Source: a virus
DNA: 38,120 bases
Virus record (IMG/VR): IMGVR_UViG_3300028920_001473
Location: 1 to 38,120 of that record
Direction: 5' to 3' (one strand)
In this document: positions 334 through 35,964 of the stretch, piece by piece
How positions within the stretch are numbered: position 1 is the first letter of the stretch
Layout: each line of letters opens with the position of its first letter
The notes under the pieces: generated by a model
The model's database searches: none
Told to the model about the DNA's origin: nothing
What the model saw: the letters and a program-made list of their open reading frames with translations, nothing else
Translations under genes and position numbers: made by a program

Positions 334-582
334 ATGAATATGGATAATATAAAAAATTTGGATGATGTTGAAAGTTTTGATATGAGTTATGTTGATGGTG
401 ATGTTCGTTTTTATAATGGTAATAGTCTTAAAAAAATACTTAAAGAAGAAATTGAAAGGTTGTATTTGGAGCAACAGAGTCTTATGCCTAAAAAAATGGA
501 ATATGATGAATATAGTTTTAAAGACAGGGTTATAGAAGAAAAAATACGCTGGATTGAAACTTTTTTTATGTTGGAGGAATGA
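334..582 (+). CDS. Hypothetical acidic protein, 82 aa
   Basis: I do not recognise this protein. It starts at ATG 334 after AATTAAAAGGTGT, which supplies a GGTG ribosome binding site; ATG 340 is a possible alternative. The N-terminal half is rich in Asp (MDNIKNLDDVESF), and the C-terminal half is charged and probably helical (KEEIERLYLEQQSL). There is no signal peptide or membrane segment. It sits between two acetyltransferase genes, 12 bases after the first and 7 bases before the second, so it is probably co-transcribed with them. Confidence 0.6.
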   Translation: MNMDNIKNLDDVESFDMSYVDGDVRFYNGNSLKKILKEEIERLYLEQQSLMPKKMEYDEYSFKDRVIEEKIRWIETFFMLEE

Positions 583-589
583 TATATTT

Positions 590-961
590 ATGGTTGATAA
601 TAAACGTTTTAAAAACTGGGAACCTCCTGTTTTTGATAAAGATGGTTGGACTAAATATGGTTGGCGTTGTCAGCATTATGAGAAATTAAAGATGGGTAAA
701 AATGTTGATATTGGTTGTTTTAGTTATCTTAATGCTCGTTATGGTCTTATCATTGGTGATAATGTTCAGATTGGGTCTCATTGTAGTATTTATAGTGATG
801 ATACTGAACGTGATATTTATGGTTGTGTTGTTATTGAGGATGATGTATTGATTGGTAGTCATAGTCTTATTTTACCTAATAGTTTTATAAAGAAGGGTAG
901 TAAGATACCTGCATTTAGTATTATTAAAGGAAAAAATAAATTATTAATAAAAGGTGGATAG
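590..961 (+). CDS. Left-handed beta-helix (hexapeptide) acyltransferase
   Basis: This 123-residue protein has hexapeptide-repeat character: MGKNVDIGCFSYLNARYG, then IGDNVQIGSHCSIYS, then IEDDVLIGSHSLILP. The repeated [I/V]GxxxxIGSH turns are typical of trimeric sugar O- or N-acetyltransferases; His64 and His91 are candidate catalytic or CoA-contact residues. It is shorter than many family members, with about four coils seen. ATG 590 was chosen because GGAGG lies at 573-577. A longer in-frame start at 554 would overlap the previous gene and has no ribosome site. The nearby GNAT gene suggests acetylation of a sugar or sugar nucleotide. The substrate is unknown. Confidence 0.82.
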   Translation: MVDNKRFKNWEPPVFDKDGWTKYGWRCQHYEKLKMGKNVDIGCFSYLNARYGLIIGDNVQIGSHCSIYSDDTERDIYGCVVIEDDVLIGSHSLILPNSFIKKGSKIPAFSIIKGKNKLLIKGG

Positions 962-6475: not shown

Positions 6476-6619
6476 TTATTCCTTCTTTATTATTTTAAAA
6501 TTTTTTCTATCCTTAAACTCTTGACGTTTACCAGGATTCCATTGACTAACAGGTCGCATATATCCAACGACTCTGCTATAGATTTCCATTGGTGTACGCA
6601 ATTTCTCTAAATCTTTCAT
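6476..6619 (-). CDS. Stand-alone glycyl-radical peptide like the NrdD C-terminus
   Basis: This 47-residue frame contains LRTPMEIYSRVVGYMRP, then VSQWNPGKRQEFKDRKNF. The signature RVVGY(x)RP...WNxGK..EF..R is that of the C-terminal glycyl-radical domain of class III anaerobic ribonucleotide reductase (NrdD); Gly19 would carry the radical. No NrdD body is present in the window. In E. coli the stand-alone protein YfiD/GrcA replaces a damaged radical domain of pyruvate formate-lyase, so a spare-part role for host NrdD is one inference. The first 44 bases overlap the end of the HNH gene in another frame. A decayed gene fragment is the alternative. Confidence 0.6.
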   Translation of the reverse strand: MKDLEKLRTPMEIYSRVVGYMRPVSQWNPGKRQEFKDRKNFKIIKKE

Positions 6620-7121
6620 ATTCTCTTTTTTCCCAGTTTTTTTCATTATAATCCTCCAAATATTTTTTATACCTCCAATGAATTGACCTATATGATAAAT
6701 CTAATATTTTTCCAATAATATCCATATCTAAACCATATTTAAATAATTCATCTATGACTTCCATATTATTTATATATTTATTTTTCCAAGTATTTTTTAA
6801 TTTTATTTTTTGATTGTTTGATACTTTATGTCCAATTTTTGATTTACTTATTTTTGGACATTTTTTACCTTTATTCCAAGGTTTTCTTTTATATCCATGT
6901 AAATAATTATGTTCAGCGTGTGTCATTAATTGCAAATTTTCAATTTTATTGTTTTTTCCATTTTTATCAATATGATGTATTATATGTCCTTCTGGTATTT
7001 TTCTATTGTAATATTTTTCCCATATATATCTATGTTTTTGTAAATTTTTGTTATTTCGTTCTATCCTTTTATATTTTGTATTTCCATTTTTTTCTAAAAA
7101 TCTACCCTTTTTATCTCTCAT
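6576..7121 (-). CDS. HNH homing endonuclease
   Basis: This 181-residue protein starts at ATG 7121, preceded by GTGAGGTTTATTCAA; a GTG at 7136 is inside that ribosome site. The HNH core is IPEGHIIHHIDKNGKNN followed by IENLQLMTHAEHNYLHG: HH at 49-50, Asn62 and His68. WNKGKKCPKISKSKIGHKVS resembles a NUMOD3 DNA-binding motif, and a C-terminal helix-turn-helix (DIIGKILDLSYRSIHW) follows. Such enzymes cut a target gene and promote their own copying into it. Its TAG stop coincides with one copy of TATAG that may mark the insertion boundary in the glycyl-radical gene. Confidence 0.88.
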   Translation of the reverse strand: MRDKKGRFLEKNGNTKYKRIERNNKNLQKHRYIWEKYYNRKIPEGHIIHHIDKNGKNNKIENLQLMTHAEHNYLHGYKRKPWNKGKKCPKISKSKIGHKVSNNQKIKLKNTWKNKYINNMEVIDELFKYGLDMDIIGKILDLSYRSIHWRYKKYLEDYNEKNWEKREYERFREIAYTNGNL

Positions 7122-7203
7122 TTGAATAAACCTCACATATGTAATGTGTTAATGGTATATAAAAATGACTATAAACCTCACATTTTGTTCTTTCTTTTTT
7201 CAT
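7111..7203 (-). pseudogene. Possible 5' fragment of the glycyl-radical peptide gene
   Basis: A 30-codon frame begins MKKERTKCEVYS and then runs into unrelated HFYIPLTHYI sequence. ERTKCEVYS matches the segment that precedes RVVGY in NrdD C-termini. Joining its TATAG (7169-7173) to the TATAG at 6576-6580 restores CEVYSRVVGYMRP in frame. It therefore looks like exon 1, or a remnant, separated from the remainder by the HNH gene. A 13-bp sequence, ATAAACCTCACAT, occurs twice here (7126-7138 and 7171-7183), so CEVYS is encoded twice. Confidence 0.5.
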
Positions 7204-16553: not shown

Positions 16554-17477
16554 TCACACTCCTGAAACAGCAGGTTTGCGAACACGATTAATTATTTGTT
16601 TATATTTACGATAAAACCTATTATCATCTTTTGTGATTATAGGTATATTAGATGCAAGGTCGCCAAGTGTTACACGGTCTACTTCTTTAAGTCTTCTTAT
16701 AAGACGGTCAGCTGCTAGATGTGCAACTGCATCCCTAAACATGTCTTGGTCATAACTACGATATTCACTCCAATAATCCAAATATACTCCTTCGTTATCA
16801 CTTGGTATAGCACTTGTTCCATCATTCTGATAAATATTTATTTCACCATTAGCAGAATTTGAAACAGTTACTACAGCATGTCTACGACTACCATTATTAT
16901 TTATCCACCATGCCTTTATATCAGTAGCACAGCTAACATTGTTACCTGTTGCATATCCATCACCATTTATATCAGCTATTGGATGATATGGTGCTTTAAA
17001 TGTTGTATTTGTACCATTAAATCCTTCACCTGTATCTGGATTACAATTTGGTGCAACAGAATAATGATGCATATTTGTATCACGAAGTGCTTCCTGATAT
17101 GATTTCCAGCATAAATCTGCTAGGTCATCATCATCTATATCTTTGGTTTCACTTGCTCCTGTTATTTGTCTTACATCTTTTTCTATTTTCCAAGGCATAA
17201 CAAAAAACTCACTCATGTATATGCCTACTTGTGATGAACCAGAGGTTGATACAACCTTTACTTTATATCTTCCATATGTAGCACTACTTTGTATAGTATC
17301 ATAATTATAATAATAAACACCAGTAGAGCTTTTATTCATATTTTGACTATTAACAAGTGTAAATCCACATGGGTCAGTTATAGTTATCTTTACTGTATTA
17401 GGGTCAACTTTTGTATTATCACGGTCACGTATTGTAACCCAATGTGAATATGTTTCATTTCTTTCGTATACAGCTAT
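16554..17477 (-). CDS. Head-tail adaptor protein with apparent ATA start
   Basis: The frame is open back to 17486. The sequence upstream of the first ATG (17339) is clearly protein: AVYERNETYSHWVTIRDRD, VDPNTVKITITDPCGF, then NMNKSSTGVYYYNYD form one beta domain. AAAGGAGG (17494-17487) lies 9 bases before ATA GCT GTA TAC at 17477, and no ATG, GTG or TTG is in frame there. The 307-residue product thus seems to start at ATA; starting at 17339 would cut the domain. The C-terminal half is helical (DMFRDAVAHLAADRLIRRL) as in phage connector proteins. Position between head and tail genes supports an adaptor role. Confidence 0.6.
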   Translation of the reverse strand: MAVYERNETYSHWVTIRDRDNTKVDPNTVKITITDPCGFTLVNSQNMNKSSTGVYYYNYDTIQSSATYGRYKVKVVSTSGSSQVGIYMSEFFVMPWKIEKDVRQITGASETKDIDDDDLADLCWKSYQEALRDTNMHHYSVAPNCNPDTGEGFNGTNTTFKAPYHPIADINGDGYATGNNVSCATDIKAWWINNNGSRRHAVVTVSNSANGEINIYQNDGTSAIPSDNEGVYLDYWSEYRSYDQDMFRDAVAHLAADRLIRRLKEVDRVTLGDLASNIPIITKDDNRFYRKYKQIINRVRKPAVSGV

Positions 17478-17492
17478 TTTATCAAACCTCCT

Positions 17493-18707
17493 TTAACTTT
17501 TTTTGATTTTATAATAATCCTCATTTTTCTTTTTATCTTTTACAATATCATAATATTGTTCATTTGATTTTTTAAATTTATAAATCTGTTCATTTATTTT
17601 ACTATATTTTAATGGATAATAAATAGGCGAAAGTGGAATATATGTATGTGAAAGACTATCACTTAATGATATTATATCACTTAGAGTCCTTGTAAATGTA
17701 GAACTACGAGTAAAGCTATCACTCATACTAAGTGTATCGCTCATATTTCTTTTGAATTGTTCAAGATGACTAAAGCTATCACTAATACTAAGTGTATCGC
17801 TCATACTTCTTTTGAATTGTTCAAGATGACTAAGATTATCAGATAATGCTAAAGTATCACTAAATGTCCTACCAAACCGTTCAAGATGACTAAAACTATC
17901 ACTCATACTAAGTATATCACTCATACTTCTTGTAGCATTAAATGTTCCACGAGTAAAAGTATCACTAATATCAAGCGTGTCACTAAAGCTTCTTAAAAAA
18001 ACAATTGCAGCTTTAAAACTATCTGTAATATTAAGTGTATCACCAAAGCTACGTTTAAATGTTCCTCCACCTGTTATATCAAGGTCGTCTGTTGGATTAA
18101 GAGTATCGCTAAAGCTTCTTGTCCCAGTAAAACTACCACGAGTGAAATCATCACTCATATCAAGAGTGTCACTAAATGTCCTAAATAAGACAATTAAGGC
18201 ATTTAAGCTATCTGTTATATCAAACGTCTCACTGAAATCACGTTTAAATGTTCCTCCACCAGCTATATCAAAATCATCAGTTGCATCTAAAGTATCACTA
18301 AAACTACGAGCAAAAATACCAGTTCCACGAGTAAAATCATCACTTATATCAAGTGTATCGCTAAAAGACTCAGTGAACATACCTATAGCTTCTAATGAAT
18401 CACTTATACTAAGCGTATCACTAAATGTTGTAGCAGCAAGTGTAAGACTAACTTTTTTAGCAGCATGACTAATATCAAGAGTAAAACTAGAAGAAGCATT
18501 ATTACCACTCTGTGATGCAGATACAATAACTGTATCACCATCATCTACTATACTATCAACATTAATCTGATATCTACCATCAGCATCCGTAGTAGTGGTC
18601 TCAACTGTACCACCTGTCTTATATCCGTGGACATTTGCTCCATTAGCAGGACTACCTCCAGTATCATAGATATATCCATATATAACGTAAGGAACAGGAA
18701 GAACCAT
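17493..18707 (-). CDS. Repeat protein with carboxypeptidase-regulatory-like domain
   Basis: ATG 18707 overlaps the upstream stop (TAATG) and follows GGAGGTG. The 404-residue product begins with a transthyretin-like beta domain: VIYGYIYDTGGSPANGANV, TTTTDADGRYQINV, GDTVIVSASQSG. Then come 13 units of about 20 residues with core FSDTLxISDSF, separated by hydrophobic or HLEQFKR linkers. The C-terminal 45 residues are rich in Lys and Tyr (NEQIYKFKKSNEQYY). This would suit a long fibre or spacer on the virion. I recall FSDTLxxSDxF repeats from archaeal surface proteins. There is no signal peptide. Confidence 0.6.
   Translation of the reverse strand: MVLPVPYVIYGYIYDTGGSPANGANVHGYKTGGTVETTTTDADGRYQINVDSIVDDGDTVIVSASQSGNNASSSFTLDISHAAKKVSLTLAATTFSDTLSISDSLEAIGMFTESFSDTLDISDDFTRGTGIFARSFSDTLDATDDFDIAGGGTFKRDFSETFDITDSLNALIVLFRTFSDTLDMSDDFTRGSFTGTRSFSDTLNPTDDLDITGGGTFKRSFGDTLNITDSFKAAIVFLRSFSDTLDISDTFTRGTFNATRSMSDILSMSDSFSHLERFGRTFSDTLALSDNLSHLEQFKRSMSDTLSISDSFSHLEQFKRNMSDTLSMSDSFTRSSTFTRTLSDIISLSDSLSHTYIPLSPIYYPLKYSKINEQIYKFKKSNEQYYDIVKDKKKNEDYYKIKKS
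17652..18425 (-). repeat. Coding repeat array, 13 FSDTLxISDSF units
   Basis: Thirteen units of 60-66 bp are encoded here. The downstream units around 17700-17900 are near identical at DNA level, e.g. repeated TTCAAGATGACTAAA and CTAAGTGTATCGCTCATA. Upstream units are more diverged, alternating TFTRG and GGGTFKR linkers. This gradient suggests recent expansion at the 3' end. Confidence 0.9.
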
Positions 18708-21700
18708 TAAGTATTCCACACCTCCGTATCTTCAACTTTACTAACTATAACATCTGTACATTCTACATAATCATCTGTTATCCCAAGGTCAGCTATATAA
18801 ATTATCCATTTATAATGAGTACGATTCCAAAGACCTATAAACTCACCTGTTTGCAGTGTCACACTACTATTTATCGTTGACAACCCAGTATTTGGTATCT
18901 CCATATAACCAGTATAATTATATCCTTTATCACTAGTATTATTAGTCCATGTATAAGTCTTAGAATTTGTATAATTCCAATCATAGTTTTCATACATAGA
19001 TATGGTTTGTGTACCACTATCACTAAGTTTAATTTGGACTACATCAAATGTGTTAATTGAGAAATTTACACCACCACCTTCATAGTTATATCTTTCCCAA
19101 CTACCATTATCAACATCCCAACTATCTGCATCCCATATTCCTATATATTCACCTGCTTCATCAAAACCATCTATTTGTTGAGATACATTCCAAGCACTAC
19201 AGTTGCTACCAAGCCATACGAAATAATCAGTATCGTTGTTACGTATTGTAATATTCCATTGTTGTATTTCATCAGCTGATACATTTTCACATATTGTAAA
19301 ACTATAACTATCATTTGCCAGTCCGTCTTCTCCGTCATCAATGAGCATCCACCACCAATATTTCGTATTATCTGTCGTAAAATTAACATTTTTCATACTA
19401 ATATTAGTATTATTAGCAACACTACTATTTGCTACTCCAAACTGTTTCCAAGAACCAGAACTGTTACTCCACCAAGTAACATTAAGACTGTCTCCATCAT
19501 TATCATAAACAACAGCACTAACAGTTTTTCCACCTGCTACATAATCTACACAATCAGTATTATTAGTAGGTGCTTCATTAGATGCTGTTGGAACATTATT
19601 CCCCGCAGGTGCTTCACTACTCCAACTTATGTTCCAAGATGCCATGTTCACGCTATCACCACTGAAGTTACCAAAAATCATAACACTTGTATTTGTTACA
19701 CTACTTATGTCGTCTCCGTTTCCTGTTAGTCCACTTGTTATGTTATAGTTATGGTCGTTTGGGTCAATCAAGGCGAAACTGCAACTATTTGTATCGTTTA
19801 CACTTGCGTAGAATTTATCCCAACTATTATCAGCTGGAAGATAAACAGGTTCAGATAAAATATAACCATCAGGATAGCCACTAACACTATTATTGATATA
19901 AAAATATGTTATACACATATCACTACGATAATTACCACCTGTGAGTCCATCAAACCTTATTTTTGTAGTTCCTGTATACGGATGACTATCTCCATCCTCG
20001 CTATATGCAACAGCATTTGTAAATGCAGCACTTGTAGAAACATGTTGCTGTCCACTTTTTGTCCAAATTGTATCCCAACTACTACCATCCCATATTTGGA
20101 CAGATAAAGTTCCCATATCACTACCATACATATGATAATAGAAATCAACAGATATATTATTGCTTCCTTCAAACTCATCACTATCAAGATAATAATGTTT
20201 ATTATTTCTACTGCTCGCTTCTGTATAGATGTAATCAGTACCAGGTGTTGTCGCTAATGCTGTTGAATCAGCACCTGTATAGCTACTTGTTGTGCCGTCA
20301 TCATCAAAAATCCATTCATAGTCACCACCACCATCAGACCAGTTACCAGCATCACTCCATGTCGTGCCATCATTACCTGTGGGATTATCAAAAAATACAA
20401 CACCACTACCACCAATACCATATGTAAAATTCTCCCACCCAGTTTCAAAAGTCGTATTACAACTGGTGTTTATCCAGTTCTCAGTTGGAAAAGTATCATT
20501 AAAATAATTAGTCCGATATGGTGTTGTTTCAAAATTATAAATACTACTTACATTATATGTTCCATCATCAACAGTAACTTTCCAATAATAAGTAGTCTGG
20601 TATTCTGTTGTGGTATAATCATAAGATATACTTTCATTAAGGATACTACTGTTTGTTTGTACCCAAGTCCAACTAGTTCCATCATCACTTGTATAAAAAT
20701 CACAGACACTTTGGTTTCCATCATCATCTGTAACAGTCACATTAACAGTTATTGCTCCAACGCTTTTATTATATGAATTATTAGATGGTTCCTCATCTGA
20801 TATAACTGGTGCTTTAAGTGTAGTATATGTTGCATAAATAGATACTGCAGAACCAGCTAATTTTTGTAATTCTGTGTAAGGGTCATCAAATGGAGCACTG
20901 GAATCACTATAAAATCTTACCAAATCCTCTGTCTGTCCTGTTTCCCAATCACCATAAACATTATTGAGTGGTGATGTGGTTCCTCTAATCAACAAAAAAT
21001 ATTTAGTTGAAGCTGATAAAGAATATAATGGTTCTGAAAAATTAAATGTTTGCCAAGTGTCATCCTCTGTATCAGCAACTTCTTTTATTTCACTTACTGC
21101 AAGTAAGTCACCTGCATCATCATCTGCATCATGTTCATATAATGCACATTGATAACTATGTGTATCTGAGATAGTATCAAAATAGAAGGTCATACTTTCA
21201 AGAGAGCCACTACCACCACATTCATACCATGAACCAACAGAATATACATAATGGGTGCCGCCAGTTTCATAATAAAGAGGACATGCTCCACTACCTGTGG
21301 TTGCCCTCCCAAACGTAGGGTCAAAAACATACGTACCAGCAGGAATGTTCTGCCTTCCAAATCGGAACCAGAACAAATCATCAGTAACACCCTTATTAAA
21401 ATACATGCCCTCGTATTGTTTAAGGTCAGACCAGTTAAACATCATATTATAAACTTCTGTTTCATTAGCACTATAATTAAGCCATACCTCATAACCATCT
21501 TTTTCTACATAATCCAAAACAACAAGGTCACAAGCAAAAGTAAAACGAGCCTCATAAACATCAACTGGTGCTGTAAATGTTAGATTAATCTTCCAAAAAC
21601 CACCTGTATCATTCCAGGTTTTATCAACAGTTAGATACTGGTTGCCCTCAGTCCATTCAGAATAGGAATATCTTTTATACTCCAAAATCCAATCTGTATG

Positions 21701-21997
21701 AGCATTAAACAAACTCTTGAAATGTGACCAGTTAACACTTTTAGTTTCCTTTATACCAAAACTATTAGGTGGTGCATACCAATAATCATAAGCAGGAACA
21801 TCAACATGGTCACCTGGTATAAATGGTTCATCATCCAACTCAAGCAATGGAAGAACAAGACCACCAACGACAATTAAACCAATAACTGTCATTTTAGCAA
21901 CCTTTTTAAAAATAGAAGGATATTTATATTTGACAATAACTATCCCTAAAAATAGCAATCCGATTAGGATAAAAAGAAAAAAGAATGGAGAAATCAT
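18707..21997 (-). CDS. Giant surface protein with membrane anchor and N-glycosylation sequons
   Basis: The largest protein in the window, 1096 residues. It begins with two membrane helices (PFFFLFILIGLLFLGIVIV; MTVIGLIVVGGLVLPLL). A folded region follows (VDVYEARFTFACDLVVLDY, GTYVFDPTFGRA), then jelly-roll-like domains (STKYFLLIRGTTS; DEFEGSNNISVDFYYH), then Fn3/Ig-like segments (AITVNVTVTDDDGNQ; GKTVSAVVYDNDGDSLNVT). By eye about 40 N-x-S/T sequons occur, consistent with archaeal N-glycosylation outside the cell. GGAGATATGAA precedes ATG 21997. It may be a host-surface protein displayed on infected cells, or a virion spike; its place among head genes favours the virion. Confidence 0.65.
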   Translation of the reverse strand: MISPFFFLFILIGLLFLGIVIVKYKYPSIFKKVAKMTVIGLIVVGGLVLPLLELDDEPFIPGDHVDVPAYDYWYAPPNSFGIKETKSVNWSHFKSLFNAHTDWILEYKRYSYSEWTEGNQYLTVDKTWNDTGGFWKINLTFTAPVDVYEARFTFACDLVVLDYVEKDGYEVWLNYSANETEVYNMMFNWSDLKQYEGMYFNKGVTDDLFWFRFGRQNIPAGTYVFDPTFGRATTGSGACPLYYETGGTHYVYSVGSWYECGGSGSLESMTFYFDTISDTHSYQCALYEHDADDDAGDLLAVSEIKEVADTEDDTWQTFNFSEPLYSLSASTKYFLLIRGTTSPLNNVYGDWETGQTEDLVRFYSDSSAPFDDPYTELQKLAGSAVSIYATYTTLKAPVISDEEPSNNSYNKSVGAITVNVTVTDDDGNQSVCDFYTSDDGTSWTWVQTNSSILNESISYDYTTTEYQTTYYWKVTVDDGTYNVSSIYNFETTPYRTNYFNDTFPTENWINTSCNTTFETGWENFTYGIGGSGVVFFDNPTGNDGTTWSDAGNWSDGGGDYEWIFDDDGTTSSYTGADSTALATTPGTDYIYTEASSRNNKHYYLDSDEFEGSNNISVDFYYHMYGSDMGTLSVQIWDGSSWDTIWTKSGQQHVSTSAAFTNAVAYSEDGDSHPYTGTTKIRFDGLTGGNYRSDMCITYFYINNSVSGYPDGYILSEPVYLPADNSWDKFYASVNDTNSCSFALIDPNDHNYNITSGLTGNGDDISSVTNTSVMIFGNFSGDSVNMASWNISWSSEAPAGNNVPTASNEAPTNNTDCVDYVAGGKTVSAVVYDNDGDSLNVTWWSNSSGSWKQFGVANSSVANNTNISMKNVNFTTDNTKYWWWMLIDDGEDGLANDSYSFTICENVSADEIQQWNITIRNNDTDYFVWLGSNCSAWNVSQQIDGFDEAGEYIGIWDADSWDVDNGSWERYNYEGGGVNFSINTFDVVQIKLSDSGTQTISMYENYDWNYTNSKTYTWTNNTSDKGYNYTGYMEIPNTGLSTINSSVTLQTGEFIGLWNRTHYKWIIYIADLGITDDYVECTDVIVSKVEDTEVWNT

Positions 21998-22011: not shown

Positions 22012-22467
22012 TTAACTATATGTCTGAATAGTCCAAGTTCCTTGGAGCGTATCACCAGAAGTCATATTAACAGTTATACTATCATCATAGACACACATAC
22101 TGCTAAGACTAGTAGCGGCAGTAAACATACCAGCTTCAGTAATAGCCCATGTACCAGTAGCAGTAAAAGTACTTACACATTGATACTTAGCAGCAGATGG
22201 TTGACTAATAGTCCAATTAGTACCACTACTATTCTCATAAGACGAAAGCGAACTAAGTGTATTATCAGTTACAGCCTGCCCTGTTCCAGTTCCTATAGCC
22301 ATAGAAACAGGATAAGGCATACTACCAGCATAGATACCCTCTATTACACAATCACGAAGTGTATCACATACACGATTAGGAGTAATACCCATATCTAAAA
22401 GATTACCATCACTGTCAAAATGCTTCCAACTAAAGTTGCCTTTTATGTTAAAACCGTCATTACTCAT
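22012..22467 (-). CDS. Virion protein, head-fibre or decoration candidate
   Basis: This 151-residue beta protein starts MSNDGFNIKGNFSWKHFDSD. It contains PVSMAIGTGTGQAVTDNTL, WAITEAGMFTAATSLSS and SGDTLQGTWTIQTYS. The pattern IGTGTxxxxxxDxxL ... TEAGxF ... SGDTLxxTWTI is familiar from phage structural proteins sometimes annotated as tail or head fibre components. Its start overlaps the preceding small gene (ATGA). The exact virion location is unknown; its place next to the capsid gene favours the head. Confidence 0.55.
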   Translation of the reverse strand: MSNDGFNIKGNFSWKHFDSDGNLLDMGITPNRVCDTLRDCVIEGIYAGSMPYPVSMAIGTGTGQAVTDNTLSSLSSYENSSGTNWTISQPSAAKYQCVSTFTATGTWAITEAGMFTAATSLSSMCVYDDSITVNMTSGDTLQGTWTIQTYS

Positions 22468-22583
22468 ATCAACACTAACTCCTTATAATCAGGATTCTTC
22501 TCCAAACTTTCTATAAGATTTTTATGTAAAACATCATCACATTCAATCCTTTTCCCTGTTTTATTGTTTTTAAATATTCTCAT
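22464..22583 (-). CDS. Small protein, 39 aa
   Basis: It starts at ATG 22583 after GAGGTGATAAATT, a strong ribosome site, and ends overlapping the next ATG. The sequence MRIFKNNKTGKRIECDDV, then LHKNLIESLEKNPDYKELV is basic then acidic and helical. The function is unknown. It is the first gene after the capsid terminator. Confidence 0.65.
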   Translation of the reverse strand: MRIFKNNKTGKRIECDDVLHKNLIESLEKNPDYKELVLI

Positions 22584-22599
22584 AATTTATCACCTCAGA

Positions 22600-22628
22600 A
22601 AATAAAAAGAAAGGGAGAAAAAACTCCC
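22600..22628 (-). terminator. Hairpin terminator after the capsid gene
   Basis: Leftward, GGGAG-TTTTTT-CTCCC is followed by TTTCTTTTTATTTT, 9 bases after the capsid stop. The 5-bp GC-rich stem with a long T tract fits an intrinsic terminator or processing stop that would raise capsid mRNA over downstream genes. Confidence 0.65.
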
Positions 22629-22636
22629 AATCACGA

Positions 22637-23563
22637 TTATGGGTTACTTATCCACCCTATAGCTTCAGGGTCTAAAACAGCAGAACCCCAATATTGCCAT
22701 AACACAAGACGAGTTGAATCACTTATATTGATATAATCAGTTGAAAGAGTAGGTCTTTTACCCCATACTTCACCTAAAGCACGAGAGCTATCAATAACAA
22801 CAGCCATAACAGCACCAGTACCACCAGTACATTTGTTTGCATTACAACACTCAATGACCTTCATACCAGCAATAGTATCAAGTTGTCCTTGGTCAGTAAA
22901 TTTAACAGTTGGAAGATGTGATACATGATAACCACTACCATCCTTCATATATAAATACTGTGAAACCTCAGGATGCATAATAACAAAATCAGGTTTATAA
23001 GCATCACCTTGCATATGTTTCTGTACAGATACAATAGAATTATACAAATTATATGCAAAAGTACAACAGCTACCAACAATACCAGCATTCTGACAAGGAA
23101 CAGCTGTCTCAATATCTACATTAACAGATGTTGCACCAGCATCAGTAGCAAGATTACTCCACAGTTCTTCATCACGACACTCAGCCATACGTTTAGACAT
23201 CTCTTTAGCAATCATTTCCTTTACAGGACCAGTTGATTCCCAAAGTGAATAATGACAAAGCAAATCATAATCTCCCCATGCAGCAACTTTTATATTATAT
23301 GTTTTCATAGTAGCAGAAGTAGCACTAAGTTCTGCACAAGCTTCACCAGCCCAATAAGATGTACAACTTGTAGTCCTTGCACTCATAGCTCGGACTTGAA
23401 TCATATTACCGCCACCAGCAGTAAAATCATATTCCATAGCTGTAATTACACCAGATAACTGTCCATAACAGACAACACCATCAAGTATAAGGTCAGCATA
23501 TACATCTTGCATAACCCAGTCATCAACAGTACTATGATGTGTAAGCTCAGTAAAATCCTTCAT
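22637..23563 (-). CDS. Major capsid protein, HK97 fold
   Basis: This is a 308-residue protein. It begins MKDFTELTHHSTVDDWVMQD and has a beta-rich E-loop-like early part (LSGVITAMEYDFTAGGGNMI). A long spine helix follows (GPVKEMIAKEMSKRMAECRD), then P-domain features such as KPDFVIMHPEVSQYLYM, and GAVMAVVIDSSRALGEVWG near the end. Gene order scaffold-capsid behind a maturation protease, plus the FVIMHPE and AVVIDSSRALGEVW segments, supports the assignment. GAGGTG lies 8 bases upstream. Cysteines are unusually frequent (about ten), which might allow disulfide stabilisation. A strong hairpin follows the gene. Confidence 0.8.
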   Translation of the reverse strand: MKDFTELTHHSTVDDWVMQDVYADLILDGVVCYGQLSGVITAMEYDFTAGGGNMIQVRAMSARTTSCTSYWAGEACAELSATSATMKTYNIKVAAWGDYDLLCHYSLWESTGPVKEMIAKEMSKRMAECRDEELWSNLATDAGATSVNVDIETAVPCQNAGIVGSCCTFAYNLYNSIVSVQKHMQGDAYKPDFVIMHPEVSQYLYMKDGSGYHVSHLPTVKFTDQGQLDTIAGMKVIECCNANKCTGGTGAVMAVVIDSSRALGEVWGKRPTLSTDYINISDSTRLVLWQYWGSAVLDPEAIGWISNP

Positions 23564-28321: not shown

Positions 28322-30583
28322 CTACCAATTACCCCCAGTACAAAAAGTAGGTTTACGAAAAGGGTCAAAATTAGTGATACTATAACGCAAAGCATCACAA
28401 TTACCACAAAAAATAACCCTTCCGTTCCTTCTAACACAAATATTTCCATTTGGAACAGTAACACAATATACCATTCCATTATATTTTTCTTTTTTAATTC
28501 TACTTTTAAATAATTGATGATAATTCGATTTATCAGAATAAACAACTACTCTCCAACATTTATGAATATTATTATCCAAATCCTCATCTCTTATCAAATA
28601 TTTAGTTCCATTTTTATTGATTTTAATTAATAACTCCTGAAAATCATTAATTAAACCCTCAGATGTTGAATTATATGTAATTTGACCATCATCATTAACA
28701 GAACCATCACCATCAACCATACCAATAAAACAATCATATAGTTCTTCATGGTTAGCATTATTTAAAAAATCCCTAGGTATTCTCTTATCATAACAAATAC
28801 CATCAGGTAAATTATCATAAAGATAATCTGAACGAATAGATAACCTGTAACAAATATTTTCTCTATCATATTTATTTTCTGAAATAGAACCACCATATAT
28901 ATCTTGAATATGTTTTATGAAATTCAAATTTGTATTATCAAAATGAATATATTTTCTATTTTTGCTAATTGATTTACATCCTTCAGCAAGATAAAAACCC
29001 AAAACATAAGGATTTACTATATATTCAGAGTTTTCTTTTGTTTCACATCCAGCTACCTTTGGCAACCAATATGATTCTATTTCTCCTTTTTCTATGTCAG
29101 AAATTTTTATTTTTATTGGTTTAAATTCTTTTAATTTTTTTGCATAATATTGTTCCATAACAAACATGTTGTGATTTTTAGTGACAGCAAAATCTATTTT
29201 ACCATCATATTTATAGATATAATCATCATATTTTTTTTCAATATAATCAACTGGCTTTTGATATTCCAAAATACCATATTCATCCATAGTTACAACTTTC
29301 TCAGTTCTGTTTAAATCTTTAAATAATTTCCAACCATCATCTGTAAGAATTTCAGTTTTATCATCATAACAAGCATGGTCATCTTTCTTAACTGGCAACT
29401 CAGGGTCATTCTTACCGAGTCTACCCTTCTCATACCTATAACTCTCTAACTCTTTAATAAGATTCTTACAACTCTTATCAATATGAATAACATCATTCTT
29501 AAAAAACGATTTCAACTTAGAAACACCACTAAAAATATCATTATCAGCATTAACAACACGTATTTTTTTATTCTTCAAAGCCTCAGAAACACTAAGAGCA
29601 GCAGGGTCAATAAAAACATTACGAATACCATACCTACGATTAAAACCACTCATAAACTCTGCCTTCTCACTATCAACAAGACCAGACTCATAAAGCTCTT
29701 CCTTAACATACATATTATTATCCTCATCAACACCAATAATAAGAATACAAGCAGGATTACGAACACCATCATCAAAACCAGCTATATGATAACGACATTC
29801 ATAGTTTTTAAAATCACCAACATGTTTATCAATATCAAAATCTTTATAAACCTGACCCTCAAAACTACCCCATTCACCATAAAGATAACGTCTTTTATAA
29901 TCCTCATCATAACTATTTTCCATCATAGGAATGTAATCAGTAGGTAAATAAGTATTATCATAACTAGTAGTATGAACATAAGCATAAGACCTATCCTTGT
30001 TTTCAAAGAATTTCCTATAAACCCAGTTAGTTCTCCCCGCAGGATTACCAGCCATAACAGCACAACGGTGGCTAGTATGATTACCTCTAAGTCTTCCCTG
30101 TAACATAAGAAATACTTCCTCATCAATATCAACAGGTTCATCAATAGCAAAACCATCCAAATTCAAAGACTTATATTTACTAGGCTCATCACAACTACGG
30201 AACAATACCTCACTACCATTCCAAAACTTAAAAGTCATAGTATGAGAAAGAAACCGTTCAGTAATATTAAAATCAAGAATACCTTTTTCATCAGCAGAAA
30301 GCTTCTCACGAGCCTTATTAATAGCCATCTGATACTGGTCAATTTCTTCTAAAAATGTTCTGACCACTGTATCCCTGAGCATTGGTATAGTCTGAGAGCC
30401 AAAAAACCACAAACTACCTGGGTGTCTGATACACTCTCTAATAACGACATGAGACATAAGAAATGTTTTCCCTGCTCCATAAGCTCCACTGTAAAGGACA
30501 TATTTTCTATTTTTTAATAAATTCAAAACCTGTTGCTGTTTAGGAAGAAACTTCCTAGGCTGAGGAATAACAATATTATTCAT
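28322..30583 (-). CDS. terL: Terminase large subunit interrupted by an intein
   Basis: The precursor is 753 residues; the spliced enzyme would be 429. The ATPase has Walker A GAYGAGKT (33-40) and Walker B LDGFAIDEP (142-150) with Asp148-Glu149. The nuclease has HIAGFDDG (Asp271/272), RNVFIDPAA (Asp326) and, after splicing, DDHACDALRY. Inteins are removed from protein, so the active-site DHxxDALRY motif exists only in the spliced form. The start ATG 30583 follows a 54-codon gene by 2 bases. The enzyme cuts concatemeric DNA and drives it into the head. The C-extein is only 25 residues. Confidence 0.93.
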   Translation of the reverse strand: MNNIVIPQPRKFLPKQQQVLNLLKNRKYVLYSGAYGAGKTFLMSHVVIRECIRHPGSLWFFGSQTIPMLRDTVVRTFLEEIDQYQMAINKAREKLSADEKGILDFNITERFLSHTMTFKFWNGSEVLFRSCDEPSKYKSLNLDGFAIDEPVDIDEEVFLMLQGRLRGNHTSHRCAVMAGNPAGRTNWVYRKFFENKDRSYAYVHTTSYDNTYLPTDYIPMMENSYDEDYKRRYLYGEWGSFEGQVYKDFDIDKHVGDFKNYECRYHIAGFDDGVRNPACILIIGVDEDNNMYVKEELYESGLVDSEKAEFMSGFNRRYGIRNVFIDPAALSVSEALKNKKIRVVNADNDIFSGVSKLKSFFKNDVIHIDKSCKNLIKELESYRYEKGRLGKNDPELPVKKDDHACYDDKTEILTDDGWKLFKDLNRTEKVVTMDEYGILEYQKPVDYIEKKYDDYIYKYDGKIDFAVTKNHNMFVMEQYYAKKLKEFKPIKIKISDIEKGEIESYWLPKVAGCETKENSEYIVNPYVLGFYLAEGCKSISKNRKYIHFDNTNLNFIKHIQDIYGGSISENKYDRENICYRLSIRSDYLYDNLPDGICYDKRIPRDFLNNANHEELYDCFIGMVDGDGSVNDDGQITYNSTSEGLINDFQELLIKINKNGTKYLIRDEDLDNNIHKCWRVVVYSDKSNYHQLFKSRIKKEKYNGMVYCVTVPNGNICVRRNGRVIFCGNCDALRYSITNFDPFRKPTFCTGGNW
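28400..29371 (-). mobile_element. LAGLIDADG-type intein in terminase, 324 residues
   Basis: It starts with Cys405 (CYDDKTEILTDDGW, block A), continues with FAVTKNHNMFV (block B) and has the homing-endonuclease dodecapeptides VLGFYLAEG and FIGMVDGDGS. It ends with GMVYCVTVPNG and RRNGRVIFCGN before Cys+1 of the C-extein. Splice junctions are therefore HA/CYDD and CGN/CDAL. The penultimate residue is Gly, not the usual His, which in known inteins either slows splicing or is compensated. The endonuclease domain is intact by motif, so mobility is likely. Confidence 0.93.
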
Positions 30584-32520: not shown

Positions 32521-32622
32521 TCAATATTCATTCAACCACCTATGCAACATTTTCATTTCCACCTCATCAATCAAACCCTCAGAAAACAAAACATTAACAA
32601 GATAACGCAACACATGCTTCAT
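32521..32622 (-). CDS. Hypothetical protein, 33 aa
   Basis: It starts MKHVLRYLVNVLFSEGL and continues IDEVEMKMLHRWLNEY. TTGAGGA lies directly before ATG 32622, inside the end of the sulfotransferase gene. It looks like a short amphipathic helix pair. Its function is unknown, and the support is a ribosome site and gap-filling only. Confidence 0.45.
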   Translation of the reverse strand: MKHVLRYLVNVLFSEGLIDEVEMKMLHRWLNEY

Positions 32623-33250
32623 TCCTCAACACCTCCCTTTCCTCATCAATAAAAATACCTTTACTAACAACAACATTCTCAAACTCAGGAGTATCAACAC
32701 CAATAAACTTACACATACAATCAACAGTATCAAAAGGATGCTCAACGAACTCCTCATAAGTATAATGAAACACATCATTAAAGTTTTTATGAAGAAATTT
32801 TACATAACCATAAAAATCAATCCAACTTTTCAAACCACCAACACAACTATCAGCAAACTCCTTAAAAGAAACATCATTCAACCGCATAACCTTCCTATAC
32901 TCAGAAAAAAGACTAACAGCCCAATCAACAGGATTACGAGTAGAAACAATAATCTTAGCATCAGGAAACATTGTTTTAAGACGAGCAGCAACAGCAAAAC
33001 GAGATTCAAAAGTATAATCAAAATGACATTTATAATTAAAAGGCAATACACTAAAAAAAGCATTAGTAAGAAGCACCTTACCATCATCAGGAATAGTAAG
33101 ATTCTCCAAATAATATTTACTATTATGATTAGAAAGATGAATACGAACAGGCATAAACTTAACACCTGTTAACCTACTAAAAACCTGTTTATCCATAAAA
33201 GTAGTAGCAGTCTTATGCAAACCCACATGAATAAAAACCTCAGAACTCAA
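32594..33250 (-). CDS. Sulfotransferase
   Basis: The start is TTG 33250, which overlaps the upstream stop as TTGA and follows GGTAGG; a GTG at 33286 lies inside the upstream gene. The 218-residue product starts MSSEVFIHVGLHKTATTF, containing the 5'-phosphosulfate loop (residues 9-18). It then has AKIIVSTRNPVDWAVSLFSE with Arg105 and Ser113 for the 3'-phosphate of PAPS. These define the PAPS-dependent sulfotransferase family. A carbohydrate or protein acceptor is likely. A methyltransferase gene lies upstream and acetyltransferases elsewhere in the window, so glycan decoration is the leading inference. No signal peptide or transmembrane helix is seen. Confidence 0.85.
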   Translation of the reverse strand: MSSEVFIHVGLHKTATTFMDKQVFSRLTGVKFMPVRIHLSNHNSKYYLENLTIPDDGKVLLTNAFFSVLPFNYKCHFDYTFESRFAVAARLKTMFPDAKIIVSTRNPVDWAVSLFSEYRKVMRLNDVSFKEFADSCVGGLKSWIDFYGYVKFLHKNFNDVFHYTYEEFVEHPFDTVDCMCKFIGVDTPEFENVVVSKGIFIDEEREVLRNEACVALSC

Positions 33251-33381
33251 CCTACCAACCCCAAATGCACACGACAACGAGTACACAACCCATTACCAAC
33301 TACCTTATCAGCAAGACATATCTCACGATTACAACGCTTACAACGATAAACAATATCATTCTTTTTACGTCTTCTAGCCAT
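33247..33381 (-). CDS. Zinc-ribbon micro-protein, 44 aa
   Basis: The sequence starts MARRRKKNDIVYRCKRCNRE and continues ICLADKVVGNGLCTRCRVH. A CxxC pair, an extra Cys and a second CxxC make a zinc ribbon with a very basic N-terminus, suitable for nucleic-acid binding. It overlaps the methyltransferase stop by 8 bases and the sulfotransferase start by TTGA. Confidence 0.65.
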   Translation of the reverse strand: MARRRKKNDIVYRCKRCNREICLADKVVGNGLCTRCRVHLGLVG

Positions 33382-35172: not shown

Positions 35173-35964
35173 TTATCCCTCCTTCATCCTTTTTAAATCA
35201 GATTGTTTAATCTTAAAAACAACTTTGGCTTTTTTACCACTATGTAACCGCCAATATTCTCCATCAAAACTAGGAACCAAACCCATTTCCCATAAATTAA
35301 TTATTGATTGAAAAGGATTTATATTTTTCTTATGTTTAATATATGCCCATTTATCAAGTTTGAAGAAACTAGATATATAACCCTCAACGGAAACCCAAAC
35401 GGAATCCCAAACGGAAACCCCAACGTAACCCCTAACAGAACCCCTAACGGAACCACTAACGGAACTCCAAACGGAACCCCAAACGGAATCCCAAACGGAA
35501 ACCCCAACGGAATCCCAAACGGAACACCCAACGGAACCTATAACGGAACCCATAACGGAACCCCCAACAGAACCCCAAACGGAATCCCATTCTTTTAAAA
35601 TAAGTTTATGTTTAACCGATACCTTTCTAACCATCTTTATATCATTAAAAGGATGAACAATTTTTTTACCTTTCTTAACAATATTATAAAGCTGTTTTTC
35701 ATAAAGTTTAAAAGCATCCCAACAACATTGTTCATGACTTGGACTAAACCAACGAGGACGTTCACTTTCATCAACCTTGAGAATCCATTTATCTGGGTTA
35801 ATGTAATCATTGTTTTTTGGACTAATTTCTATACGAACAAACTTTTTACAATCATCATTATCGTTGTAACCTGCCATATCAATAAGTTCATGATGGCTAT
35901 CAACTGCTAGTTTCCATGTAACCTTTTTTCTTTTAGATATTATACAACTAAATGCTTTACACAA
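35173..35964 (-). CDS. SVxG tetrapeptide-repeat protein
   Basis: The start is TTG 35964, seven bases after AAGGAGGG; it is clear because GTG one base on is out of frame. The 263-residue protein has an N-terminal domain (KKVTWKLAVDSHHELIDMA, FVRIEISPKNNDYINPDKW). A central array of 17 four-residue units reads (G/D)SVx from residue 127 to 194, e.g. DSVWGSVGGSVMGSV. A C-terminal domain follows (WEMGLVPSFDGEYWRLH, then KAKVVFKIKQSDLKRM). Four-residue periodicity with V and S suggests a beta-helix or beta-roll rod. Similar arrays occur in phage proteins of unknown role. Confidence 0.65.
   Translation of the reverse strand: MCKAFSCIISKRKKVTWKLAVDSHHELIDMAGYNDNDDCKKFVRIEISPKNNDYINPDKWILKVDESERPRWFSPSHEQCCWDAFKLYEKQLYNIVKKGKKIVHPFNDIKMVRKVSVKHKLILKEWDSVWGSVGGSVMGSVIGSVGCSVWDSVGVSVWDSVWGSVWSSVSGSVRGSVRGYVGVSVWDSVWVSVEGYISSFFKLDKWAYIKHKKNINPFQSIINLWEMGLVPSFDGEYWRLHSGKKAKVVFKIKQSDLKRMKEG
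35383..35586 (-). repeat. Seventeen 12-bp coding repeats
   Basis: In coding sense the unit is roughly TCCGTTxxGGxx; Ser is almost always TCC and Val GTT, though elsewhere in these genes AGT and TCA are frequent. In plus sense it reads AACGGAAYCCCA. The uniform codons indicate recent expansion at DNA level. Confidence 0.92.

Follow-up and report, generated by a model that had tools for sequence, protein, structure and literature searches.

A host-type, membrane-anchored and sequon-rich giant protein encoded among the virion genes of a tailed virus

In several lineages of tailed viruses, our data show a membrane-anchored, sequon-selected giant protein of host derivation that is conserved beside the virion genes. 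The copy studied here, a 1096-residue product that we call P0001, is encoded in a 38,120-base IMG/VR virus record that lacks end repeats (the window, meaning the whole stretch of DNA that was analysed). As this copy lies between the genes for the major capsid protein (MCP) and the connector, we regard it as a homologue, or viral branch, of the giant surface proteins of Thermoplasmatota and not as a member of that family. Judging from sequence comparisons, we see an even chance that P0001 is a virus-borne, host-derived, N-glycosylated surface protein displayed on the infected cell, where it would mask receptors or exclude other viruses. A sequence-only reading had already noticed the giant gene; its observation is confirmed, and its proposal of a host-type surface protein that decorates infected cells, excludes other viruses or joins virions outside the membrane is partly supported.

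Results

The giant gene lies within a set of virion genes

The minus-strand set of the window encodes TerL (with an intein), the portal, a DUF2213-like protein, the MCP, a PHROG-5417 protein, the giant and a partner protein, beyond which lie the connector (a positional assignment), the proteins of the tail and the tape measure. The giant was said to sit inside the head-gene set, and it does fall between the MCP and small protein (22012-23563) and the head-tail connector (16554-17339). The open reading frame is real, with the coordinates and length first given for it, and it runs on the minus strand from an ATG at 21997 that is preceded, 5 nt upstream, by the Shine-Dalgarno (SD) sequence GGAGAT. 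The features of the locus are as follows, L143 and L144 being related viral contigs described below.

22637..23563, minus strand: major capsid protein (PHROG 267; Pfam Phage_capsid below cut-off; 58% to L143)
22012..22467, minus strand: small PHROG-5417 protein, directly upstream of the giant (PHROG match)
18707..21997, minus strand: P0001, giant membrane-anchored protein, 1096 aa (open reading frame and SD)
21932..21988, minus strand: hydrophobic helix 1, aa 4-22 (mean Kyte-Doolittle 3.0; helix in model)
21893..21931, minus strand: basic loop KYKYPSIFKKVAK, aa 23-35, predicted by the positive-inside rule to face inwards (sequence)
21836..21892, minus strand: hydrophobic helix 2, aa 36-54 (mean Kyte-Doolittle 2.3; helix in model)
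21293..21802, minus strand: N-domain, aa 66-235, ending in DPTFG (alignments A1 and A6; model; tree)
20816..21292, minus strand: DUF4082-type domain, aa 236-394 (aligned in A1 with L144)
20513..20812, minus strand: Ig-like domain 1, aa 396-495 (60% identity with L143; matches host Ig repeats)
20363..20512, minus strand: split scaffold domain, first half, aa 496-545 (59% identity with L143)
19898..20362, minus strand: exchangeable domain, aa 546-700, of MAM type in P0001 (Pfam; comparison with L143)
19607..19897, minus strand: split scaffold domain, second half, aa 701-797 (61% identity with L143)
19283..19606, minus strand: Ig-like domain 2, aa 798-905 (31-47% to Ig repeats of Thermoplasmatota surface proteins)
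18707..19282, minus strand: C-terminal domain, aa 906-1096, and stop (38% identity with the C-terminal domains of L144 and L143)
17493..18707, minus strand: partner gene, with a carboxypeptidase-regulatory-like domain and SFSDTLDISDDF repeats (Pfam; homologues in L144 and L143)

The giant starts 14 nt past its upstream neighbour, and the ATG of the partner gene lies within the giant's stop (TAATG overlap), with an SD sequence, GGAGGTG, inside the giant's end, an overlap absent from the sequence-only reading. This spacing and overlap make it very likely that the giant is carried on one transcript with virion genes. Relatives of the small PHROG-5417 protein precede the giant in L143 and L145, and the provirus described below also has one. 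The CarboxypepD_reg match of the partner protein (4.4e-7) falls just under the Pfam cut-off, and homologues of the partner gene adjoin the giant in L144 (36%) and on the contig of L143 (33%). Repeat proteins styled like the partner occur nearby in L146 (DTLLSR-type) and in the provirus (DNITLNELLSK-type), and are perhaps fibres.

Other genes of the window were also noted. In TerL (28322-30583, minus strand), an intein-like insertion with a LAGLIDADG domain interrupts the protein in frame, and the TerL of L143 (431 aa, 58% identical) lacks it. A sulfotransferase (32594-33286, minus strand; Sulfotransfer_3, 1.5e-10) has a counterpart on the L145 contig and none on the four remaining viral contigs; glycans, possibly including those of the giant, might be its substrates. 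A hexapeptide-repeat transferase of the sugar O-acetyltransferase type (554-961, plus strand) is a second candidate for glycan modification. A run of (W/G)xSVxGSV-type repeats (35173-35964, minus strand) is 64% conserved on the L143 contig and may vary in repeat number, and an HNH-type homing endonuclease-like reading frame, read by eye, adjoins the tail genes (6576-7136, minus strand).

Anatomy and topology of P0001

Two N-terminal helices and several beta domains had been claimed for the product. Both helices are strongly hydrophobic on the Kyte-Doolittle scale (aa 4-22 and 36-54) and are helical in the AlphaFold model as well (4-25 and 27-51), in which the ectodomain is mostly beta. We used the full-length model for the two helices only, because it is poor (pLDDT 35.6). 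The N-domain modelled alone was better (pLDDT 73.5, pTM 0.70), and a fold search with it returned nothing significant, with best E-values of 1.9e-3 in the PDB (a DUF4450 protein) and 1e-2 in BFVD. Acidic residues come after the second hydrophobic segment; with the basic loop between the segments, the positive-inside rule would place ~1040 residues of P0001 outside the cell. The MAM match (PF00629, aa 550-652, E 1.7e-6) is above the Pfam cut-off, and the DUF4082 Pfam match is present in L144 and absent in P0001 itself. The N-domain is common to the other viral giants and to Thermoplasmatota surface proteins.

P0001 is selected for sequons

About 40 N-glycosylation sequons had been counted in P0001; the enrichment stands and the count does not, as we find 47, compared with 17.3 +/- 3.5 expected from 5000 composition-preserving shuffles, the maximum of which was 31. 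Serine or threonine occurs 48 times at position +2 from asparagine and 14-23 times at the other offsets tested on both sides (23 at -2). The excess is confined to the +2 offset and is hence not a by-product of beta-strand periodicity; this offset control ruled out both periodicity and chance as the source of the sequons. None of the 42 other reading frames in the window exceeded a z of 2.0, compared with 8.4 for P0001, and among reading frames of more than 300 aa on the related viral contigs the giants alone were enriched (z 2.4-4.5). The L143 giant, once its parts were joined, also has 47 sequons (z 6.9), and the giants of Thermoplasmatota hosts have z values of 5.4-10.7.

A protein without transmembrane segments from the virion cluster of L144 (13079-14458, plus strand) shares the DPxFG-DUF4082 module of the giants (27% identity, E 2e-4), and with 2 sequons against 3.9 expected it has no excess. 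The sequons track the membrane anchor and not the fold, which matches the prediction of selection for N-glycosylation outside the cell. Between P0001 and L143, 30 of 46 asparagines in sequons are kept, compared with 11 of 41 elsewhere (p 5e-4), a difference that partly reflects regional differences in identity. The hairpin with its basic loop, the sequon excess confined to anchored proteins and the relative lacking an anchor lend indirect support to export and glycosylation, and we consider it very probable that P0001 is exported, adopts the topology given above and is glycosylated.

Viral relatives share the anchor and the setting

Homologues of the giant are found within structural-gene clusters on five other IMG/VR contigs, representing about three tailed-virus lineages; the A1 profile matched L143-L146 and A2 added the fifth, L153. 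The L144 and L146 proteins are identical, leaving five distinct viral giants including P0001. All five have a hydrophobic hairpin and basic loop (basic in L143, L144, L145 and L153 as in P0001) followed by the N-domain, and the L144 giant has one more hydrophobic segment ahead of the hairpin.

The closest relative, L143, belongs to the same virus group (MCP 58%, portal 60%, TerL 58%, connector 66%) and shares with the window the gene order MCP, small protein, giant, carboxypeptidase-regulatory/repeat protein and connector. Its giant is split over both contig ends (1134 aa when joined) and is 39% identical to P0001, lower than most neighbours (58-60% for MCP and portal). By BLAST, the giant and the small protein that precedes it are all that L145 has in common with the window, and its giant is placed after a putative MCP and the small protein. 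The giant of L144/L146 is located among the tail genes, and the gene after it encodes a short carboxypeptidase-regulatory-like protein with homology to the product of the partner gene. Exact-peptide scans of IMG/VR with P0001, MCP, portal, TerL and primase, and of GTDB genomes with P0001, found no relative, and P0001 and the MCP had no match among phage records. A DNA pattern for DPTFG gave chance matches only.

Thermoplasmatota encode host-type relatives and a related provirus

Archaeal genomes were obtained by a 16S pattern and then searched in six frames, which gave matches in 27 of 243 Thermoplasmatota genomes. The best matches are reading frames of 2312, 2299 and 946 aa covering aa 60-510 of P0001. 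Over 330-440 residues, the ectodomain shows homology to giant surface proteins of Thermoplasmatota, with 29-35% identity in the aligned 60-400 region and BLAST E-values down to 5e-32, and the description of P0001 as a host-type surface protein is thereby well supported. The host giants consist of a cytoplasmic N-terminus, one transmembrane segment, Ig domains, an N-domain that ends in DPTFG or DPIFG (in four of five), the DUF4082-type domain and many Ig repeats; an IDNIDDLVDRxLAK-like N-terminal motif is clear in three of five. By eye, their genes stand among ordinary genes of the cell, and PurL is the neighbour in three genomes. The full N-domain was detected with the A1 profile in 4 of 390 Thermoplasmatota genomes, one copy lying among surface-protein genes on a 1.82-Mb contig, and in none of 837 genomes from four other phyla (195 Asgard, 295 Halobacteriota, 200 Thermoproteota and 147 Nanoarchaeota), where the DUF4082 part was matched at most.

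A portal profile matched one of the 390 Thermoplasmatota genomes (G043), on a 53-kb contig that by eye contains a provirus with cell genes on its flanks:

Contig C4, ~16.8-38.9 kb, Thermoplasmatota genome: G043 provirus (L155/L156)

The provirus is colinear with the window over the portal, DUF2213 protein (50%), small protein, connector, tail protein and tape measure. It lacks the giant and has a 640-aa DUF2341/repeat protein between its small protein and connector, and thus the giant is not essential to the group. The provirus and, independently, the surface-protein homology support Thermoplasmatota as the probable host phylum of these viruses, which have few relatives in databases.

Domains are exchanged between giants

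P0001 and L143 are 23% identical within aa 546-700 and 59-61% identical on either side, and unrelated sequence occupies the position of the MAM domain in L143. The DUF4082 part is replaced by a BNR-type region in L145 and by another long region in L153. In the N-domain tree the window, L143 and L153 are joined (98/97), and L144 groups with host proteins. A single viral clade was rejected by the AU test (p 0.0175 without L145, 0.0036 with it) in a tree of 10-12 rows in which the L145 copies form long branches, indicating that the N-domain has been exchanged between viruses and hosts more than once. By these comparisons, domains evidently move between viruses and hosts.

Discussion

In order to account for a host-type membrane protein among virion genes, we propose that the gene encodes a viral form of a giant cell-surface protein of Thermoplasmatota, produced alongside the virion proteins. 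The two-helix hairpin would insert into the host membrane with the N-terminus out, the basic loop in and the ~1040-residue ectodomain out, and host machinery would N-glycosylate many of its 47 sites. Late in infection the glycosylated protein would cover the cell, where its exchangeable domains (MAM in P0001, others in relatives) could bind or mimic surface ligands and, once exchanged, would follow host surface diversity. Host receptors or the coat would be masked or replaced, so that progeny would not re-adsorb and competing viruses would be excluded. We consider it likely that P0001 is located on the cell rather than the virion, and we put forward masking or exclusion as its purpose tentatively. 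Against display on the cell stands the rule that genes adjacent to the MCP usually make virion parts. The superinfection-exclusion proteins known from phages of bacteria are as a rule small, and are expressed early or by lysogens, whereas P0001 is giant and probably late, which also counts against the proposal, as does the absence of the giant from the related provirus.

The main rival reading, which we think unlikely, is a glycoprotein of the virion: P0001 would take part in attachment as a receptor-binding or decoration protein, added to the particle either at the membrane or once the cell has lysed. The place of the gene between MCP and connector, on the same probable transcript and 14 nt past its upstream neighbour, would suit such a role, as would its coupling to a repeat protein that is possibly a fibre. 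The giant also diverges faster than the MCP and portal (39% compared with 58-60%) and swaps a domain, as receptor-binding proteins do, and virion proteins of the tailed halovirus HRTV-DL1 stain as glycoproteins (PMC10384203). However, tailed particles assemble in the cytoplasm, on the opposite side of the membrane from the P0001 ectodomain, none of the other structural proteins of the window is enriched in sequons, and the anchorless virion-cluster protein of L144 already provides the same module without a sequon excess. The tail fibre and receptor-binding proteins of tailed viruses are soluble and lack an anchor, unlike P0001 with its membrane hairpin.

Less probable still is an adhesin that attaches the infected cell to surfaces or to other cells nearby and aids spread. 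Adhesive surface proteins often contain Ig, MAM and DUF4082-type domains, and the host homologues are large multi-Ig surface proteins, yet the present evidence does not distinguish adhesion from masking. We find it quite improbable that P0001 acts in egress, as a late coat-protein mimic disrupting the host coat ahead of lysis: its late-gene position, its homology to coat-type proteins and the fact that family searches recognised no lysis gene in the window agree with this, but it has no enzymatic or pore-forming motif, and mere disruption would not need the conserved ectodomain detail and sequons. Recent passive cargo, a host gene acquired by chance with no viral role, has clear host homologues in its favour and is very improbable given that in the window and in L143 (as in L144) the gene is open and full-length, its hairpin and sequons are conserved and its neighbours are similar.

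Returning to display on the infected cell, tailed viruses are usually pictured as cytoplasmic builders of soluble particles. It is possible, with chances a little short of even, that the tailed viruses of Thermoplasmatota have on repeated occasions acquired coat proteins of their hosts as late genes and recombine the domains with hosts and each other, for a virus-specific cell coat or for glycoproteins on particles outside the membrane. In the literature we found, neither cell-coat conversion nor the addition of glycoproteins to particles outside the membrane is described for tailed viruses, and our search of incomplete coverage revealed no tailed virus with a membrane-anchored giant glycoprotein of host type. 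If the infected cell is indeed re-coated, archaeal tailed viruses would own a surface-remodelling tool, and receptor masking, exclusion and the exchange of surface proteins between viruses and archaea would become testable questions. Sequon excess at +2 with within-genome controls also offers a simple genome-only test for extracellular viral proteins.

Comparison with known systems

Pleolipovirus spikes are membrane-anchored, with an exposed and often glycosylated ectodomain, and P0001 resembles them as an anchored viral protein with an exposed ectodomain. These spikes sit in the viral envelope, whereas the window has a siphovirus-type gene set (TerL, portal, MCP and tape measure) and no sign of an envelope, which sets P0001 apart from spikes of that type. 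HRTV-DL1, like the window virus, is a tailed archaeal virus with probable N-glycosylated proteins; its virion proteins have 3-9 sequons, compared with 47 in the host-type, membrane-anchored P0001 (PMC10384203). Viruses of Thermococcales encode modular lectin-like (ConA-type) proteins whose binding domains are gained, lost and exchanged between viruses at one locus, and the exchanged domain of P0001 may be comparable; in the portions of that report considered here they are highlighted in spindle-shaped families, and a host-type scaffold and sequon selection are not reported (PMC12934983). Among described archaeal head-tailed proviruses, 1 of 38 is from Thermoplasmatota, in a study whose main text does not mention glycosylation, S-layers or transmembrane proteins (PMC11705971). 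The closest likeness is to the unnamed family of Thermoplasmatota giants (L140, 2312 aa; L141, 2299 aa; L142, 2006 aa), with which P0001 shares the N-domain, the DUF4082-type domain, Ig repeats, an N-terminal anchor and a sequon excess. The host proteins are longer and have a cytoplasmic N-terminus and a single transmembrane segment, whereas the viral giants start with a two-helix hairpin, and their genes adjoin cell genes, whereas that of P0001 adjoins virion genes.
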